Origin: Paracyclopina nana
Taxonomy: Eukaryota; Arthropoda; Copepoda; Cyclopoida; Cyclopettidae
Length of the DNA: 64,000 nt
Assembly (NCBI GenBank): GCA_019096065.1
Contig: JAGUCH010000001.1
Span: forward strand, 6,200,001-6,264,000
Direction: 5' to 3'
Below, piece after piece: positions 6,701 to 32,898 of this stretch. Positions within the stretch are counted from its first letter, which is position 1; every line of letters starts with the position of its first letter. The translations under genes and the position numbers were made by a program. The notes below the pieces were generated by a model that saw only the letters and a list, made by a program, of their open reading frames with translations, was not told where the DNA came from and did not search any database.

Positions 6701-9700
6701 AATTTTGATGTATTATTGTAGTAGAAGCTCTACTGCCATTATTTCGCCATTTTCTTTGCTACTGCTATTATAATGCTACTACATTGCTCACAAAAACAAC
6801 AACCTCACCAATACCGTCCTTGATAATTTGTCTTTGTTTTTTCCCCAGAGAATCACATGGGATCCGTTGGACGAGGATCGAGAATTATGCCTGTTGAAGG
6901 GCAAAACCGAGGTAAAAATCTACTAAGGTCAATGTTGAAATATTCCAGTTATGACATTGAATAATCTTGATATGTGGCGGTGGTGGGAAAGTAATCAAAT
7001 TCATGCATGCAGGAGCTACTGTGATTGATCCACATATCTGACCTTGATTGCTTCCACTTCTAGGTCGATTGTCAAAACTACATCCGAATTTTGGCCAAAA
7101 CGGGCGACGACAGCCTCCTAGTTTGTGGCACCAATGCGTACAATCCCAAGTGCAGAAATTACTCTCGACACATTCAGTCCTCCTATTACGAGCCAATGAT
7201 GGTTGACAAAGAGTACTCAGGCAGAGGATTTTGTCCGTACGACCCAAGACACAATTCGACGTACCTTTTTACAGGTAACCGGCAAAAAAGCCTAATTGGG
7301 CTGCTATCAGCTTTGTTTTATAGCAAATTGTTGGGGGAACAAATCATGTCAAAATGCACTTTAAATGCATCGTTTGCATACCACTGCTCCAATCAATGGC
7401 AACCAACCTTTTTTTAAGGAAGGGGGGAAAAAGTGCTCGTTTGATGAGGACTTCTTAGGAAAAAAATGATTAAGCGCCTAACACGCATATCCCACACTCC
7501 ACCACCGAGTCGTGTTTTTTTAATATTAGAACGGCAAAAAATTCGTTTTGTACGTGACTCGGGCAAATTCTCGTACGTAGTTGAGAAACATTTGTCTTGA
7601 CTGTGTATTTGACCATTACCTTCGCCAATTTGCTCAACAATGCAATGGCGAGGCAGTTTTCGACAGGGCTGCTCCTTTTTACGAGGCCTTGAAGCATTTT
7701 GTAGCACTACAAGTACTATGTACTTTAAGCAAAAATATGGTGAAAAACGTGAACTTGGCACACATCGATTAGCACCATAACTAGACATGACCCCATGGGG
7801 CGAAGTCAGTACTGGTCATGAGGCAAGAGGGAGAGGATGAAAAATGATCAGTCCACCAATGTCCATTTATGATACAGATATTTTTTCACTTTTATATTTC
7901 TTCATCGCAGAAAATGCAACTCACGGCTATTTGAGAAATCGAGCATCAAAGCACTTTTTTCCTCTCCATCACTATATGATAAAAGTGTATTGATCCAAAA
8001 TTGACAATATCTGCATTCTTTGGCCATTGATATTAGCCCGGTTCCAACATGGTAAATCAGCATAGTCAGGAGACGTAACTTGACTTTTTAGCATAGTCAG
8101 GTCACAGCTAGCTCGCGCGCTCAGCTCGACCTGACTTAACTGGTTTACCGCACTGCACTATGCTGATATCCCGTGTTGGAACCGGGCTATTGATTGAGTT
8201 TTCGTTTCCGCAGATGGCGAGCTGTATTCGGGCACAGTTGCGGATTTTTCCGCCTCGGACTCATTGATTATCAAGGACAGCCTAAGGACTGAGCAGTATG
8301 ACTTCAAACAGCTCAATGGTGAGTGGATTTGATTAATGATGACACCCTCAAGGCGAGCCTCAATTTACTTTTTCAGCCCCCGATTTTGTCAATGCGCTGG
8401 AGGATGAAAGGCACGTGTACTTTTTCTTTCGAGAGGACGCCGTCGAGCACATCAACTGCGGAAAGGTGCGAAACGCAACATCTGTTTGAATCAGCTTTAA
8501 AAAATTACTTCTCTCTGCAGACCTCATTCTCCAGAATTGCTCGAGTGTGCAAAAATGACCAGGGAGGGCCGCACAAGTTCAAGAACAAATGGACCACCTT
8601 CCTCAAGACCAGGCTGAATTGCTCCGTTCCAGGCGATACTCCATTCTACTTCAACGACATTCAGGCCACCACCAACTTCATAAAGGATGGCAAAGATCAG
8701 GTGGTTTATGGCGTTTTTACCACCCCTGACAACTCCATAGCGGGAAGTGCTATTTGCGCTTTCAAGCTATCTGAAATTACGGACTCTTTCGAGGAGGGGC
8801 CCTTTAAGAACCAAGAGACTGTCAACTCAAATTGGCTGCCAATGTCCAAATCCCAAATTCCCGAGCCTCGGCCGGGAATCTGCGCGTCGGACCCTCAAGA
8901 CATGTCGGAAAATAGCTTGAACTTTATCAAGCGCCACTCCCTCATGGACTGGTCGGTGGGGAGTGCGACGCGGACGCCGATTTTCGTCAAGACCAGCCTC
9001 GGAGAGAGGCTGACCGTCATCGAGGCCGACCCGGGGGTCCGGTCGGTGGAGGGGACCGTGACGGACGTGTTGTTTGCCGGAACAACAAACGGCAGGGTGC
9101 TCAAAGTGAGTGCGAACACCAACACCCTGATTGAGGCCTTTCAAGTGTTCCCCTACCACGTGCCAGTGAGGAATTTGCTAGTGGCTGGGGAGCAGATCAT
9201 CGTGCTCTCAGATCACGAAGTCAACGCGTTCCCTCTGCAAAGATGCTCCTCTGCACTCACGTGCGGCGACTGCGTTGCCCTGCAGGATCCTTACTGTGCC
9301 TGGAGCCTCGAGACAAGCGAATGTGCTCATCAAACGCATAGCAGCTATGCTCGGACACGATCAGGCATGATTCAAGATCTTGAGCATGGGTACCACTCCG
9401 AGTGCCCTATCCCCGTTCCAGGTAAGCCTTTCTACCATTTCGTTTTTATGCCTATATGCACTGTCATGTTTCTTCAACTCAGAAACAAGCACTCTCCCTC
9501 CAACGACTACCACGAGCACAACCACCACTACTACCAGCACTGCTACCACAGCATCAGAAACTTCGGAGCAACTTTTCGACAATAAAACAACCGACTCAAA
9601 GGGTAAAGTGACTGTGAATTCGCCCATCAGCGGTGGTGTTGATGGCTCCGATGAAGCGTGCCCCACCTGCAAATGCGATTGTGACACTGCACCCAACTCT

Positions 9701-14904: not shown

Positions 14905-17900
14905 CTAGCTTATATTTGAAGATCCTTGGTAACTCTGATAATTTGGCTGACTTTTGAGAATATCAGCGCAAGTACTTAACTGGTTGAACTTTCGCTGGGG
15001 AGTTATGTCCCGGATATGTGGCTGTAAAAAAGCATGCGGCAAAATCCCTGAAAATGCGAGTGGTATGTGGAGAAAATGTTTTGAATTCTCCAGCTTTGAT
15101 ATCAGTATGATCAAATCCGGAGCCTAAACACACTTACTAAAACCGTTTGGTCCAGCTCCATCCTCGTTGTTCAGGTTGTTGCACAATATCATGGACATGG
15201 TCACCTTCTTGATCTCGTTCAGCTCATTCAGTTCGAACTGGACGTTGGGATCAGCATTGCTCTCATAGAAGAACCGATCAGCTTTCTTCAGCCTCGCAAA
15301 TTGATTGGCGACAATTTTAGCATGTGTTGGGCCCAAAACTTGATTCCGCCTTCCAAAACGGTCCCTTTTGACGACTTCAAGCAATGCACCAAGATAAAGG
15401 TCGATGTCCTTCCAACTCTTGTACAGGCTTTTCATCACCAGCGCAGTCAATGGTCCGCGTTCCCAGAATTGCTCAAAGAATTTCCACGATTTCGGCTTGT
15501 TCTTGCTCGTCAACTCCACCCAAGTATGATAGGCTTGCATGAAACTTAAATAATAAGAGTACGACCTAAAAATGACTTCAACAAGTACCTGGTATTCCAT
15601 GATCCCTGCCTCGATTAATGTTCCAAGCAAGCAAGTCAAATCCTCCAGCGTCGGCAGCCGGAGCAGTTCCATCCGGACTCGCATTCAAAGCATCACGAGC
15701 TTTGGCGGCAAAAAACCCGCTCACTCTTCCAGCTGGAGAGAACATCAAGCCACGAAAGAGCTGGGTGGTAAAATTGGCGGTGTTAAATGCATCGAAACGG
15801 AATGCAATGTCATTGATGTCGAATGAGGTTGTCAACTGATTTTGCGAGTCGTACAAGTTCACTCGATCCGGAAGCATAGCATGGCCGAAGCGGTACGAAG
15901 CGGTCGCAAAAACATTCTAGGGAATCGAAGTTACCAACAGCTGGAAAACTTCCAGTACGATTTTTTAGTCACCATAATGGTAGGCTCGACTTCGGGATCA
16001 TAGGTTTTACTGTATCCGGATTGAGTTGAGTAAAGGTTCATTTCCTTCATTAGTTCAGGACCTGCAAAACGAGGAAGAAATCTTTCTTCACTTGATGAGA
16101 AATGCAACTTGAAACCAGTATACCTACTAAGAGAGGCAAATACTCGTTGTAAATGATGTGCTGGTACTGAGCAACGTTTATTCTTCGGGCTTCGTGAAAT
16201 AGCTTGTTGGGTGACCAAGTTGGATTGGCAGCTCGTAAGATATCCACGATTCTATTATGCTCACGAGCCCAAATTGTCTGCTCCGATGCCAAAGCCACAT
16301 TTTCATCAGTGCGGAAATCCCCTGTAAATACTAATAATAGAGTGGCCATACCTAATAATTAAATTTCTTCGTACCTCCAATAAAGCAATTAGATCTGGCT
16401 GTTCCCGTGGGAGTTCTAGCTGGGCTGAGGAAACATGTAGCACATGAAATTGGAGGAGCATTAGGAGGCCTAATAGGGAACAGTACAACTCGCTATCGGT
16501 GAAATATGTCAATTATAGGGCATATTGTTTAACCTTGCTGTGACTGGACACCTCGGCAAGAAGCCTTTTCCTCCGTCGGCTGAATCCAGGAGGACTTTGG
16601 CGATATCATTGGTGTTGACGTTTACCACGTCCCAGTAGGACTTTTTGGAGTTGTAGATCTGAGACAGATCCAGCCAATTCGACACTTGATTCATCTAGAA
16701 TACAATTGTCTAGCTTTAATGTTACCTAGAGTAAAGTTAGCTTTCTACAATTTGTCGTGGTCCAAAATGGCATTCCCAATCCGGAACGGCTTGAGTGACC
16801 TGTTGATGAAGACATTCCTTTCTTGACGCGGGAGGTTTCAAGCTCCACAGTGGATCAGCTTTTGGTATCCTACAAAATTAGAGAGTATTGCTTATTGCTT
16901 CTGCAACATGAACTGCCAATACTTAATAGAGATGCACCAGAACCGGGAGGCTTTGGTTGGAGTAACGTAGGTTTCCAGATAATCTGTGTTCTGAGGTCCA
17001 CAGCAATTGCCTGTCCCCAGCGCTCCAAAAACTGGAGTTGACCTAAGAGAATACCAAAGCAATAAGCAATGTGAATTTTTCTTATTTGGATACAAACTGG
17101 TTAATCGGCTTAGGAAAGGTGTTAGTCAAATCGTGATCAACGAATTGGGCAAAAAACACAAAGTTTGAATTCACAAGATCATCGATGGGCTTGAGGTTGT
17201 TCAATTTTTGACCCAATACAAAAGAAATTCGGTTGCTAATCACTCGGGGATTAGGTAAAGCCTCTCCAGTTGCTCGGCTGAGTCGGAAAGCATTGATGCC
17301 ATCTACGAAGAATTAATGAATGTAATTTCCAGTTATCTGTATCTCAAGTGAGTAAAATATGGGGTCATCAAGGGGCTTTTCGAAGAAGCTAGCAGTGACG
17401 CACTTCCACATTCTCAAAAGATCAGATTTTGTTGGCTCTAATCACCACTCAACTTGATCCGGCCAACACGTATGAATGACCTTCTTTGGAAAAAGGTATC
17501 TCATATCATGATAACGGCTTAATTGGTCAAGGGTAAGCATGCGAGCTTAACAGGCTCTTTTTACATTAAATCAGCCATATTTTCGGAATTATGAGTCTCA
17601 TATGATTGAAGGTAACAAGGAAGAGGGGCTAGGATTTCTCTTTAGAAGTAGCTTCATGAGACTTTCAGCTAGAAAGTAATAAAAATTGTTGAAACCTGAG
17701 TAGTCCGGAGTCAGTAGTCTTGAGAAAGGAAGTCCAAGGATGCCAAAATGCTCCTTGCCAGGAGTCAAATTATTACAGGCTCCAGAAAATAGCCTCGTAA
17801 ACCTGGGGTCTCCCAGGTTGGAGGGAGCACAATTTTGAGGAATTTCTAATATGGTTGCCGAAGTGTCGGTCCTCCAACGGCAATAATCGTGCTTTTTTCG

Positions 17901-20900
17901 CCTGCAAGGACATGCATGTCTTCTTGTATCACGAGACTCGAGAAATGCAGGAAATGGGGTAATCTTACTGCAGAGCCTTAGCTGCTCTCAGAGGGTCAAT
18001 CGATGTGCGCTTGATAATTTGTTCTGAAATCGTGAGCAAAGCTTCCCCATAGGAGCCGAATGGTGCCAAAGCAGGATCTCCACCATTGATGCGACCAGTG
18101 TCGAATTTGGTCGCTACAAAAACGAATTGCTATCGCGGCTAGTTCAATATCTAATTTTACCTGCTCGGGGGAAACGATTGTTGGGCGTTTGCCGGAATGA
18201 GCCCAGGAGCCTATTTGATCGTCTTCTATTCTACAAATTAGGAGGAATGAACATGAGACACGGCCTGTTCTAATCTCATCACTTACTAGGAATGGACGCC
18301 TTTGAGGGGAAAAGCCTTGAAAAGCATAACGCTTTGAATACAATTACATAAAAAATGAACATTAGTACCTTGACGTTTCACGCGAAGCTTCTACTGAAAT
18401 TAAATTACTTATAAGGTGAGCTTTTACTAATTAGGGCAACCTTATCACCTTAGCCTTGGATGACAGATGGGGTGGAGTCGTGCTGAAACTCGTGAAACCC
18501 GAGTAGTTTTGCCCCTGAAGACTCGTTCGCAAGTCCAGCTCGTCATAGTAATTGTTGGCCCATTTGGTCAATTCTTCCTGTGATGGAAAATCAGCCATGA
18601 CTTGCGCCAAAGTTTCACCTGCTCAAAAATAGTGTGTCAATCTAAGGCGTAGAAGAAGAGGCTAGTGCATGCATTGAGTCGAAAATGCACCCACCTAGTT
18701 CTCGATCTAGCTCCTTCTTTTCGTCTTCGGAGAGCATCACCTCATCCTCCTCTGGCTTTTGAAAGTAGCCTACTTTCTTGTACAAAGCATATGCTTGAGA
18801 TAGTTTCATTCCCAGAGCATAGTCGAGGCTGGCTGCATGTAGAAGAGTACGCATCAAATTCATACACGGGAAAATCTGATCAGCTTTGCATCATCAAAGA
18901 AGCATGACTTGTGCGATGCAGGAGAGCCAAATTAAAGTGGTGCTCGTTGTTGGCATGTATGCTCAAAATAACAGCTCTCTCCCCATGTTGTACTATTATT
19001 ACCTGTGCAAAACTTGCTGGGATGGCAATTCAGTCTCTCGTCTCTGCAGTCTTTGTCCACTTGACACTTTCTTTTCTCACACCTAGGTACGTACACGGGT
19101 AAAAAGCAGATCTGTTACCTCCGACTGTACTGTTTTAATTTTACAAGAAGAGATGGCTGACAGCTAGAAAATGGACTACCTTTTATTTTTGCCACACACT
19201 TCAGTGTGATGACAGTGTATGTGATGCCTACAGCTGCTCCCCTTAGGAACGACGCAATGCTCCTCTTCGCAAGTTTCATTTTCGAGACACTGTTTCTTGG
19301 ATTGGCAAGTCATTTCTGCAAAGTGCGTTTCGCTTTTGAAAGTCATATACCTTGTTAACATAGTCATTCGCGTCTTACTCCGGCAAATTCCCTTTGATGG
19401 ATGACACTTGGATCTGAATGGACAGTCTTGATCCGTAGAGCATTTCTTCACCTCGCATTTCCCGCCGAGGCAAAGTTCGGAAGGTCTTCGTTGACGTGAA
19501 AGCAGTTACTCAGGGCAGCAAAAAATTTATAAACATATTTGAAAGTACCTTTTGCATTGGGAGTCCCTGTTACACAACTTTCCGTGGAGCTCGCACCTCC
19601 CTGATCGACAGACCTACCCAGCAAAGGCTGAATTTTAAAGGAGTCTGATGGCATTTCCAAAAGGCGCTAAATATTACCGCTTTATTGCATTTTGCTGAGC
19701 GCCCTTTAACTCTGGTGCTGGTGCAGTCCTTATTTTCCTTGCACTTGAAAGCTTACAGAGAAAAAAAGCTTCATTAGGAAAACCGATCAAATAATGGTGT
19801 GCGCAAACAATGTACTACCTGAGCAATAAGAGTGAAAGACGTCATGGTGACACTGAGTTCCTTGGGGACAATTTTCGTCCGTTTCGCAATCAAGGCTGTG
19901 GCAAAGGTGGGTGCCATTATTGGCATCAATACAGGCGACATCAATGGCTTGGAATTTATCCACGCACTCAATATGAGACGAGCATAATTCCGGCTTCGAG
20001 TCAGCTGCCTGCAAAGAGAGGGAAAATACAGTTTAACAGACTCGATACTTTAAACTGATAAAACAAATGATTTCTAATTTCGTCCATCCTTACTGTATTT
20101 ATGCACCTATTGTGAATGCAAGTGTGGTTGACTGGGCAGTTTTGCGATGACACACACGGAGGGTCGGTGCACTGGCCAAGAATACAGCTCGAGTCTCCTG
20201 GACAATCACTGCTTGACTGGCACAAACTGAAGTAGCATACTCCCTTTGGCAAGTAGCATTTGAATTTCTTCCTTTGACAAGGCTCAGAGTGGCTACACTT
20301 TTGCTCCTGCAATGCTGCCATTCACGTACAAAAATAGAAGGCTAAAGCGGTAAATGCACACTTTATCAACGTAGATACAGGTTCCGGAAAGACACTCCAT
20401 GTCTATTGGGCATGTGTCTGAAGATTTGCATAAAAGTGCCGTCGTAATGCATTTGTATCGGATACACTTCATCGACGAGCCGTCACAGTCATCGTCGTCA
20501 CTGCATTCTTGTAGTGCCATCTCCTCATAGTCTTCGACGTTGCCTTCCGCTTTGGCAGAACCAGTGAACTCACTGAAAGTATATAAAACCCTATGATCAG
20601 GATCGGAGTGACAGCTCATCCATCTACTGAGATAGGATTCAATACGTCAAATGTAGACGTTGGTTTACTACGCCTTCTGGCGAATTTCCAATTCTTATTT
20701 GATTAAGTAAACAAAAAATCAAACGCACATTTGTGGTAGTTCTTAGCTAAACAACCAGTCAACGCTTGCGACTTATAAACATTCAGACATTTATTGCTCA
20801 AGCTACTTTCAGGCTCAGTACCTGGGTGACGAATAGTCCAAATAGTCCAAAAGGCTGTCAAACACATCATAATCTTCCAAAGGCAGCACAGGGTTTGTCT

Positions 20901-20991
20901 ACAGAAGAGGAAACAGGGGTAATGAACAGGGTATAATAACGATGCTTACCAAAGCAACAAAGAGCATTAAAAAACTTATGCTTTTGGTCAT
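14905..20991 (-). CDS. Secreted heme peroxidase with N-terminal tandem cysteine-rich modules
   Basis: Rebuilt as 27 exons on the minus strand: 20991-20950, 20898-20822, 20572-20362, 20306-20094, 20008-19819, 19751-19678, 19613-19549, 19485-19379, 19315-19180, 19082-19003, 18832-18695, 18618-18449, 18390-18369, 18315-18287, 18230-18161, 18113-17969, 17901-17696, 17302-17098, 17042-16923, 16869-16749, 16694-16534, 16469-16375, 16321-16124, 16061-15973, 15916-15589, 15533-15138, 15047-14905. These total 3831 nt, or 1276 residues, with every phase agreeing. Order: signal peptide (MTKSISFLMLFVAL), about 13 modules of the form C-x3-D-x-C-x5-C-x4-C to about residue 398, a linker, RVKR at about 504-507, then an animal peroxidase domain. 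Catalytic residues match myeloperoxidase: Q711/D714/H715 in AQFVDHD, R896 and E899 in FRTDE, proximal H1000 in YRFGH, N1087 in WNINRGRDHG. Such enzymes oxidise substrates with hydrogen peroxide outside the cell; the physiological substrate is unknown. The weakest joint is the 170-bp intron 18833-19002 that links the modules to the enzyme. Confidence 0.85.
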
Positions 20992-21445: not shown

Positions 21446-21600
21446 TTTATTGCAGTGAACAGTGGATTGTTTTCTAAATAGCTCATGAGCTATACAGTAA
21501 GAGCTACGCTAGCACCAACGCTGCTAAGAAGAAAAGATTTGGTGAACTTTAATTACAAATTTTGCGTCATGAACTCACTTACGATGCCCCAGACCAGAGC
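21446..21600 (-). repeat. Copy A of a duplicated intron-bearing fragment, possible 3' end of a small gene
   Basis: On the minus strand a GTAAGTGAGTTC donor at 21582 and a TTCTTCTTAG acceptor bound a 59-bp intron-like segment (21582-21524). The frame after it reads SVGASVALTV then stops. A minus-strand AATAAA lies about 45 bp further on. The hydrophobic ending would suit a GPI or membrane tail. Copy B, at 22330-22430, matches across about 100 bp and keeps the same 59-bp spacing. No protein family is recognised, and a dispersed repeat is equally possible. Confidence 0.35.
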
Positions 21601-22329: not shown

Positions 22330-22430
22330 GCGCTATGTAGTAAGAACAACTAGCGCCACCTAGGCTAAGACAAACAGATTTGGTGATTTTAGCATGCAAA
22401 ACTTGCGTCAAGAACTCACTTACGAGACCC
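22330..22430 (-). repeat. Copy B of the duplicated intron-bearing fragment
   Basis: Diverged second copy of the fragment at 21446-21600. Shared blocks include the GTAAGTGAGTTC donor region, GACGCAA, CACCAAATC and the CTTAG acceptor. Its 59-bp intron-like segment is 22423-22365. After the acceptor the frame differs from copy A (GGASCSYYIARELK, then stop). Confidence 0.4.
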
Positions 22431-23019
22431 CCCTGGGCGTATCATTGTTATGATACTTTTGTCTATAGTCAGTGGTGGAAAAATAAAATGCTACAACATA
22501 AGGCAAAAAACAACTTTGATGAAGAAAAAATTGTCAAGGAATTAAGTAATTGGGAAATAAGAACCTAAACATTTAACTAAAATCGAGTTCTGATTGAATC
22601 TAAAGGAAATATTTGCATTTTTGCAATTGCTTTGATTTTCAAAAATTCTGCCAAAGTAGCAAGAAGTAGAGCTCTGAACTATTAGTGACAAATTCTTATT
22701 TTGTTCCAAGAAGTGCCAAAATTGCAGTAAAATTTGTCTCTAAAAGGATGTGTCTAAAACACAGCCATCCCAAGATGTGCCATCCCACCACAGCAACCAT
22801 TATGAAAGTAGGGCAAATTCTAACACCATTGGTCCGCCCATTTATGATGTCATCACATCATTTTTGAAAAGCAAACAAATGTTTTTTGCCTATTTCCTTC
22901 TTTTGCCTATTTTCTTCTTCCTTTTTGCACTGCAATTATCTGAAGTAGCCGATCCACTTAAATTGCAGCTGAAATTATGACCGAAATTGCGCTGCAATCA
23001 GCTGATCCAGGTTTTAGAT

Positions 23020-30700: not shown

Positions 30701-32898
30701 AGGAGGCCAGGAATATTGCGGTTATTTATTCATAGATTCTTCACTTGATTATGCTACGCATGTGTAGAGTGACGTCATAAAAAGTGCTCCTGGGCCAGCA
30801 TAAAAGATTGCATTATTCTGCTTCCACAATCTTGACAAAATTCACGACACCACAAAAGGCATTGAGTTGGGAAGATTTGGCCACTTAATCGCTCCTCGTT
30901 TCAGGACCTACAAAAACCTGGAGAAGAGAGTCATAGTTGAATGCGATGGTGAGGCAATCCCGCTACCTTCTCTGCAAGGGATTGTCGTTTTGAACATATC
31001 CAGTTTCATGGGGGGAACTAACTTTTGGGGAAGTGCCAAAGATGACAACATTTTCTTGCCGCCAAGTTTTGATGATGGCATCCTTGAGGTACTTCAAGCC
31101 AAAATTTGGTGTCTTCTTCCAAAAGTCACCAAAGCAGAGGCCTCAAAATCTGATAGCTAGAATATTGACTAGTATGCTGGTATTCTAGGTGGTCGCTGTA
31201 TTTGGGTCGATGCACATGGGAGCTTCCAGACTGGTCAACTTGCAAAGACACAGGATCGCACAATGTAGGTCGGTGGTCATACGAATTTTAGGCGATGAAG
31301 GCGTTCCTGTCCAGGTCGATGGGGAGGCTTGGCTTCATCCACCAGGAATCATACGAATTTTGCACAAAAATAGGGTGCAGTTGGTTTGCAGAGACAAGGT
31401 AATAGACTGAGTAAGGTGGAAGGACCCACTTATAAATTTGTCCTCTAGGCTATGGAGCAACAACTTAAAGGCGGAGTTACCCCTAGAACGTGGTATAGGG
31501 AGCATGCACATCCTGTATTACTTCCTCTAGATGAGGAAGAGTCACATTTACTGAGATCTCTGATTGGAGCTGCAAGACAGTTCAATCATCATATCATTCT
31601 TATTCACCATGCACTGGATGGACCAGAAAGCAGAGAATTGGCAACTCTAGCCAATTCACTACAAGGTAAACATTAGAGCAGAATTTTTCTGAGGGAGTAA
31701 ATTGGCAAGTATATGTTCTTAAAATAGATGCCATGAAGACGGTGACTCCAGATGGGATTCTGTCTTTGGATGCTCCGGAGCTGCGGCGAAGATCAGCTAT
31801 AATTGTGAATCGATTGAGACAATGCATTGAAGTCTGCAAGAGAGTTTTGCTCGAAAAGTTCCAAGATACGCAATGCGATGCTGCTGGCAAGTTGAGCCAG
31901 AGCATTTACGTGGTGGAGTCTCTTCTGGGCAAATGTCACCAGGAAGGAGATCTGCTGTTTTTCACGATCAGACAAGATCCTCAGGTAACCAGGCAATCAA
32001 AGTGCCAAATTGGTTGCGAACTGCACGTGGCATGCAATCACATTAAATCTAACAATTGATCTTGACAAATGCAAAGGCCAAAAGGAAGCTAAAACATTCC
32101 ATAGATAGCTGAAATGACGTCAATGAATGTCTTGCTTGCTAAAAAATCTGTATTAATATGTGCAGGAATCCGGGCGGAGAAATTCTTGGTTCAGAGTGCC
32201 CAAGTTTGGCAGATCCCCATCAATAAGCCTCGGGAGTGGCATGACTGGTAGCGTGGGCAACGTTGGTAGCCTCAGCAACGCTGGCATAGGCTCAACGTCA
32301 ACTTCATCGATGGGAGCTAGTACAAGCACAGCGGCCAAGTTGCCCAAAATGGCGCCCACCTCGTCTTCTTGTATGGTTGAAATCGCTCTTCAGTGGTCAC
32401 CCAACGAAGTCAGTCAATGGTTGGAGGCAATTGGTCTGCCAATGTACTGTCATGCCTTTTTAGAGCATGAAATCTCCGGCACTGAATTGATGTCTCTAGA
32501 AAGATCAGATTTCAAGGATGTTGGAGTAACAAAGGTGAGGGATATTGATTAATGGTAACGATGCCACTTTTTACTGTACCTCAGCGTAGCATGTCCTCTT
32601 TTTTATCTCTTCAGATACATGTACACGTTCCACACACATTTTGATAATTTGATTTTCATAGGTGGGCCACATAAAGAAGCTCCAGAAAGGAATACGAGAC
32701 ATACAGAACGGGAAAATGCCTCGGAGGCTTCTTCATGCGAGCTGTGGCATTACTTCCGTCTCGTATGGAACAGCCAGTGGAACATCAACGATGTCTTACT
32801 CCAGCTCTTCAAGGTTGCCTTCAAAAGCTGCTATTTTTGACGATTTCGATTCGTACACAATGGATACTATGGCATCTCAGGAAGAGAGCTTTGGCTAA
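24731..32898 (+). CDS. DGKH: Diacylglycerol kinase, type II (delta/eta class), N-terminus uncertain
   Basis: Twenty-two phase-consistent exons: 24731-24818, 25032-25165, 25232-25326, 25546-25676, 25865-26027, 26090-26192, about 26505-26653, 26884-27146, 27349-27517, 27873-28086, 28378-28701, 28761-29060, 29227-29368, 29598-29819, 30295-30400, 30467-30637, 30905-31088, 31189-31398, 31449-31665, 31728-31984, 32166-32534, 32662-32898. They give 1415 residues. The first C1 finger fits HX12CX2CX13CX2CX4HX2CX7C exactly ([15 protein letters not shown]). A second C1 follows, then the catalytic half with [11 protein letters not shown] and [16 protein letters not shown], then an acidic insert of about 545 residues. 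The accessory half follows ([32 protein letters not shown]), then a SAM domain ([19 protein letters not shown]). The order is diagnostic for delta/eta kinases, which phosphorylate diacylglycerol to phosphatidic acid and so damp protein kinase C signalling. The PH domain usual in the family was not found, so the protein may start further upstream. An in-frame ATG lies at 24743. Confidence 0.93.

Follow-up and report, generated by a model that had tools for sequence, protein, structure and literature searches.

The window analysed here is a stretch of 64,000 nucleotides from the genome of the copepod Paracyclopina nana (92 Mb in 10 contigs), located at 6.2 Mb on contig C1. The minus strand between positions 20991 and 14905 carries a consistent chain of 27 exons, which encodes 1269 residues before the stop codon in a model reconstructed from the raw sequence with hand-set boundaries. 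The predicted protein combines an N-terminal array of four-cysteine modules, a linker with an RVKR motif and an animal heme peroxidase domain with conserved catalytic motifs (Table 1). The same window also harbours two plus-strand exons that code for other domains, namely a semaphorin-type exon that encodes Sema and PSI domains (8323-9585) and an exon with a SAM domain (32160-32552). Just upstream of the peroxidase gene lies an 82-bp direct repeat, 76% identical (21509-21590 and 22350-22431), a possible remnant of a mobile element.

Table 1. Features of the array-peroxidase gene, in positions of the window
Feature	Position	Strand	Evidence
Exon 1: ATG and signal-peptide-like hydrophobic stretch ISFLMLFVA	20950..20991	-	Kyte-Doolittle mean 2.76 over nine residues
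Exon 2: N-terminal segment, acidic, tyrosine-containing	20822..20898	-	exon model, protein sequence
Exons 3-10: 13 tandem four-cysteine modules, residues ~63-397	19003..20572	-	patterns; weak Dumpy_DPY and DUF7107 matches
Intron 10: junction of array and enzyme, 170 bp	18833..19002	-	donor 9.7, acceptor 5.1
Exons 11-16: linker or prodomain, residues 399-589	17969..18832	-	no Pfam match
Exon 13: RVKR furin-type site, residues 504-507	18369..18390	-	motif
Exons 17-27: end of linker, animal heme peroxidase domain (residues 626-1216), C-terminal tail, stop codon	14905..17901	-	Pfam, motifs

All 26 introns of the hand-built 27-exon model are of the GT-AG type, keep consistent phases and range from 47 to 393 bp. 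A preliminary description of this DNA had proposed an in-phase minus-strand model of 27 exons and 1276 residues. The exon number and the agreement of the phases were recovered, but the length was not, and therefore at least one splice choice differs between the two models. Splice sites were scored by leave-one-out matrices trained on the same hand-built model, and hence the scores test its consistency rather than its truth; the lowest values were -1.8, -0.4 and 0.4 for the acceptors of introns 9, 25 and 8, respectively, and -1.7 for the donor of intron 20. A codon test lends no support to the model and has no power at this locus, since the frame of the model was not the best of the three in the array (where it ranked lowest), the linker or the peroxidase; the value for the linker remained just below the 95th percentile of random window segments. 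At its start, exon 1 codes for a strong hydrophobic core that follows a lysine, and the model ends 53 residues beyond the peroxidase match.

The run of tandem cysteine modules at the N-terminal end of the protein, already proposed in the preliminary description, is well reflected in pattern counts. A greedy pattern resolves 13 non-overlapping four-cysteine modules (residues 63-397). A strict module pattern, with overlapping registers counted, yields 11 minus-strand matches, all of which start within positions 19066-20505, compared with a minus-strand mean of 0.055 and a maximum of 1 among 200 sequences simulated for this 6.1-kb region with a first-order Markov model; the plus strand gave no match, and the strict pattern was found nowhere else in the 64 kb on either strand. 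Owing to a fifth cysteine in the eighth module (residue 276), the greedy pattern is out of register from there onwards in its units for modules 9-11; judged by eye, the natural repeats in this region start at residues 283, 306 and 330. Residues 61-408 comprise 53 cysteines, i.e., 13 times four plus one, and this odd number hints at one free cysteine, or else at one wrong splice choice or module. For exon 4, which covers three modules, AlphaFold returned three short hairpins, one for each module, at a mean pLDDT of 67 and a pTM of 0.37.

The preliminary label of “EB or Dickkopf-type” for these modules finds no support in Pfam. Neither EB (PF01683) nor Dickkopf gave a Pfam match to the model at E values up to 10 (filters drop most matches above approximately 0.1), and the window locus is absent from the 11 matches of an EB search of the P. 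nana genome at E values up to 1. Membership in either family was rejected on these grounds. Instead, the array alone matches Dumpy_DPY (PF21164; 19.1 bits, E 0.0013) and DUF7107 (PF23416; 18.9 bits, E 0.0019), both below their cut-offs of 27 and 24.6 bits, respectively. Genome-wide searches for the two families picked up one exon of the window gene, again under cut-off (Dumpy_DPY, 22.8 bits; DUF7107, 23.5 bits). Sub-cut-off matches at E values up to 1 also occur in unrelated control genomes, namely in 3 of 14 for DPY, in 1 of 14 for DUF7107 and in 2 of 14 for EB. NCBIfam left the array without a family assignment. A module-pair profile, comprising six pairs from the window gene and 12 from an array gene on contig C2 (18 in total), produced uniformly weak matches in the PDB: scytovirin (E 0.0023), an LRP1 fragment (E 0.0037), Dumpy 1oig (E 0.0096), the VLDL receptor (E 0.013) and Dickkopf-4 (E 0.028). 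Some weak resemblance to Dickkopf may thus be present, and we describe the modules, tentatively, as DPY-like and claim no family membership.

Sequences of these two families occur elsewhere in the genome. Among 102 Dumpy_DPY matches, 52 exceed the cut-off, and 50 of these are located at 5.077-5.109 Mb of contig C6, which we read as a putative Dumpy-like gene. The cuticle family Chitin_bind_4 accounts for 80 matches in this genome versus none in any of 14 control genomes, and these matches point to a cuticle-bearing arthropod. The array gene on contig C2 (3693192-3698631) is a 1876-residue open frame of tandem four-cysteine modules with 32 overlapping DUF7107 matches over cut-off. It features a long run of near-identical two-module repeats separated by proline-rich PTPPTPGTRC linkers. 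This gene and the window gene have in common tandem four-cysteine modules of the C-x5-C-x5-C-x4-C kind, yet the C2 gene differs in being made of modules and linkers without an enzyme, in those portions of the 1876-residue frame that were read.

The C-terminal part of the protein had been described as a complete animal peroxidase with all catalytic residues, and this assignment stands. The Pfam family An_peroxidase (PF03098) matches residues 626-1216 over nearly its full length (profile positions 2-524 of 530; E 2.6e-123; 412.8 bits, cut-off 25), and lactoperoxidase (2ips) is the best sequence match in the PDB (E 2.3e-43). The motifs QFVDHD, RTDE, RFGH and NINRGRDHG align with QIVDHD, RASE, RFGH and NLQRCRDHG of lactoperoxidase. 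These motifs contain what we take to be the catalytic residues, i.e., the distal Gln-Asp-His, the Arg/Glu, and the proximal His with its Asn partner, all of which are present in the window gene. This assignment is partly backed by PMC3533774. In light of the complete motifs, the predicted peroxidase is expected to be an active enzyme.

Array and peroxidase are separated by a linker of approximately 227 residues. The linker has no Pfam match, and a low-threshold tblastn comparison with the paralogues revealed nothing convincing upstream of a conserved CNNL stretch. Its RVKR motif is the sole R-X-[K/R]-R sequence in the entire protein and is positioned between the array and the enzyme. This motif, which the preliminary description did not include, raises the possibility of the enzyme being released from the array.

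The genome contains further peroxidase loci. Pfam searches returned at least 90 exon-level matches, corresponding to approximately 24 domains in 22 loci including the window gene; the loci were grouped by eye, and as the 90 matches are a lower bound, peroxidase genes may be missed. Modules were sought on the strand of the gene in 23 stretches (L017-L039) around the remaining 21 loci, including two with a pair of domains each and one (L039) supported by a single partial match. The scan reached approximately 4 to 8 kb upstream, including about 4.2 kb for L027 and about 4.1 kb for L026, where the first peroxidase exon apparently lies some 2 kb upstream of the profile start. The strict pattern, which matches 11 times in the window gene, was found twice in L018, once in L019 and not at all in the remaining 21 stretches, and the loose pattern scored 27 in the window gene versus 0-5 in each of the 23 stretches. 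With these counts, the presence of a similar array in front of the other peroxidases was rejected for the stretches scanned. The loose clusters of L018 and L027 were likewise discarded as modules, since by eye they resemble chance cysteine-rich frames.

At other peroxidase loci in this genome, the putative front-end modules are of a different kind. Fibronectin type II (FN2) domains over the Pfam cut-off were found at three loci on contigs C2 and C3, with two domains in L024 (4932-5920), three in L030 (3864-5043) and one in L029 (3119-3250). The domains lie in open frames that immediately precede the peroxidase and share its strand, and they are likely spliced to it. In a FastTree phylogeny these three peroxidases cluster (supports 0.813 and 0.991) and exclude the window gene, which has no supported sister (0.208 with L034); the tree is based on query-anchored tblastn pieces and includes 22 of 25 rows, after L037, L018 and L039 were dropped for having fewer than 250 aligned residues. 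Apparently, the peroxidase family of this genome has acquired front-end modules on more than one occasion, which renders the array less strange, and front-end modules seem to be usual for peroxidases here.

Several further features were observed at these loci. In L024, L030 and L029 the FN2 domains precede a cysteine-rich stretch, which by eye resembles a CLIP domain but has no Pfam match. L017 (C1:16635522-16642741) and L025 (C5:4411243-4415404) each encode two successive peroxidase domains; the first domains cluster with each other, and so do the second domains (supports 0.991 and 0.996). This pairing suggests that the two-domain arrangement is old. Upstream of L035 (C2, near 699 kb) a 957-residue minus-strand open frame contains acidic repeats, e.g., EVSEVDEDC. 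Finally, a small open frame on contig C9 (5951950-5952360), located on the same strand as a peroxidase and approximately 14 kb upstream of it, codes for a hydrophobic start and for modules weakly like EB and DUF7107. It was rejected as a second array-peroxidase case, since it has its own ATG and hydrophobic stretch; from a reading of the frame itself and of the intervening DNA outside 5952361-5960499, it probably represents a separate gene.

The explanation that we favour overall, with moderate confidence, is that array, linker and peroxidase form one secreted protein, that the array targets the apical matrix and that the protein is cleaved at RVKR between its two parts. A single gene would thus give rise to a secreted protein composed of a signal peptide, an acidic segment, 13 modules of the two-disulfide type, the RVKR linker and a catalytically complete peroxidase. 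The array would act as a disulfide-rich arm or propeptide, which directs the enzyme to an apical extracellular matrix or retains it there; this matrix could be the cuticle, the eggshell or a lumen lining. In the presence of H2O2 the peroxidase would oxidize tyrosines and cross-link matrix proteins, and a convertase cut at RVKR would part the array from the enzyme, either during secretion or at the matrix. The link to a matrix agrees with the weak likeness of the modules to Dumpy, a matrix protein, and with the cuticle-bearing arthropod indicated by the Chitin_bind_4 matches, and an anchoring of the enzyme by the array is plausible. From the predicted protein we infer secretion, disulfide bonds, cleavage, matrix targeting and substrate alike.

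A single RVKR between array and enzyme would also suit an array that is a disposable propeptide, which serves as a folding aid or inhibitor, is cut off in the Golgi and plays no role in targeting. Cleavage of a propeptide is known from myeloperoxidase. However, thirteen modules in our judgement seem far beyond the needs of folding, and the front modules at paralogous loci are quite different. We consider a merely disposable array rather unlikely.

The secreted fusion further presupposes that array and peroxidase belong to one gene, as the preliminary description had assumed, and the evidence at intron 10 makes such a fusion likely. The donor of this intron scores highest among all 26 (99.9th percentile of GT sites on the window plus strand), and its acceptor ranks at the 92.7th percentile of AG sites. 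The interval 18700-19100 contains neither AATAAA nor ATTAAA, while an AATAAA occurs approximately 540 bp past the final stop codon. Moreover, the three ATG starts tried near exon 11 are followed by hydrophobic cores of 0.94, 0.79 and 0.40 only, versus 2.76 in exon 1, and none of them provides a separate start with a convincing signal peptide for the peroxidase. With agreeing phases, a top-ranking donor and no poly(A) signal at the junction, the single gene is the better-supported reading.

Alternatively, the model might wrongly join two adjacent genes, with exons 1-10 encoding a secreted cysteine-module protein and exons 11-27 a peroxidase of its own. Such an error would agree with the array accompanying just one peroxidase, a linkage observed once, with the stop codon that ends the array frame inside an unspliced intron 10, and with the C2 gene, where (in the parts read) a module array forms an open frame without an enzyme. 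Yet, the very strong donor, the matching phases, the lack of a poly(A) signal in 18700-19100 and the poor signal peptides at the three starts tried all argue against it. A peroxidase starting at exon 11 would be a secreted-type enzyme without a signal peptide, which would be odd, and we regard two joined genes as unlikely. It is more improbable still that the gene yields an array-only secreted protein besides the spliced fusion. Such a form would end in the 23 residues (with two cysteines) that precede the stop in a retained intron 10, but this donor is the strongest of the gene, so that frequent retention is not expected, and the short tail may be chance.

The array might be a docking arm, which pairs with like modules of the Dumpy-like protein and of the C2 array protein and thereby delivers a cross-linker that is then freed at RVKR. 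This idea is a long shot; if true, the protein would be a self-targeting matrix cross-linker made from matrix modules. Secreted peroxidases harden the cuticle and eggshell of animals, and how each of them finds its matrix is poorly known. A peroxidase with an array of modules that weakly resemble those of Dumpy would give a direct and testable answer. Together with the FN2 loci, the array points to a small arthropod genome whose peroxidases have come to carry several different front ends.

Among characterized peroxidases, lactoperoxidase shares the whole catalytic domain and the catalytic motifs with the window gene, but is not known to carry a module array. Peroxinectin has an integrin-binding RGD or KGD motif; RGD, KGD and LDV are all absent from the model. 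Likewise, a C-terminal NADPH oxidase part, as in dual oxidases, has no Pfam match in the window gene, and the LRR, Ig and VWC domains of peroxidasin were not found by Pfam at E values up to 10. In its layout, peroxidasin nevertheless is the closest working parallel, as it has several domains, is secreted and places protein-binding modules in front of its enzyme part (PMC3533774). The salmon louse protein LsPxtl-2, like the window gene, is an arthropod peroxidase with a single peroxidase domain; it has a predicted signal peptide, and the window gene a signal-peptide-like start. According to PMC10579435, LsPxtl-2 measures 661 aa, has altered distal motifs and an extra domain with a weak Eph-receptor ligand-binding profile, and other salmon louse peroxidases possess other extra domains. 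Thus, LsPxtl-2 differs from the window gene in that its extra domain is not a module array.

With regard to the modules, the DPY units of Dumpy (PF21164, PDB 1oig) are similar in size and cysteine pattern and constitute the best Pfam match to the array, albeit below cut-off. In Dumpy, EGF and DPY modules alternate (PMC2930355), whereas the array of the window gene has no EGF modules between its units by Pfam. No peroxidase bearing DPY, EB or Dickkopf modules emerged from the literature searched, of which mostly titles and abstract openings were covered. EB and haem peroxidase appear in separate rows only of a table of Pfam families in the passages covered of PMC3839933, and no peroxidase fusion was seen in those covered of PMC5778769. 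The same architecture may already be listed in arthropod protein databases. Within the genome itself, the FN2 loci L024, L029 and L030 provide the nearest counterpart, since there, too, small disulfide modules directly precede a peroxidase domain, although these are of the FN2 type. The domain combination of the window gene is unusual but understandable.
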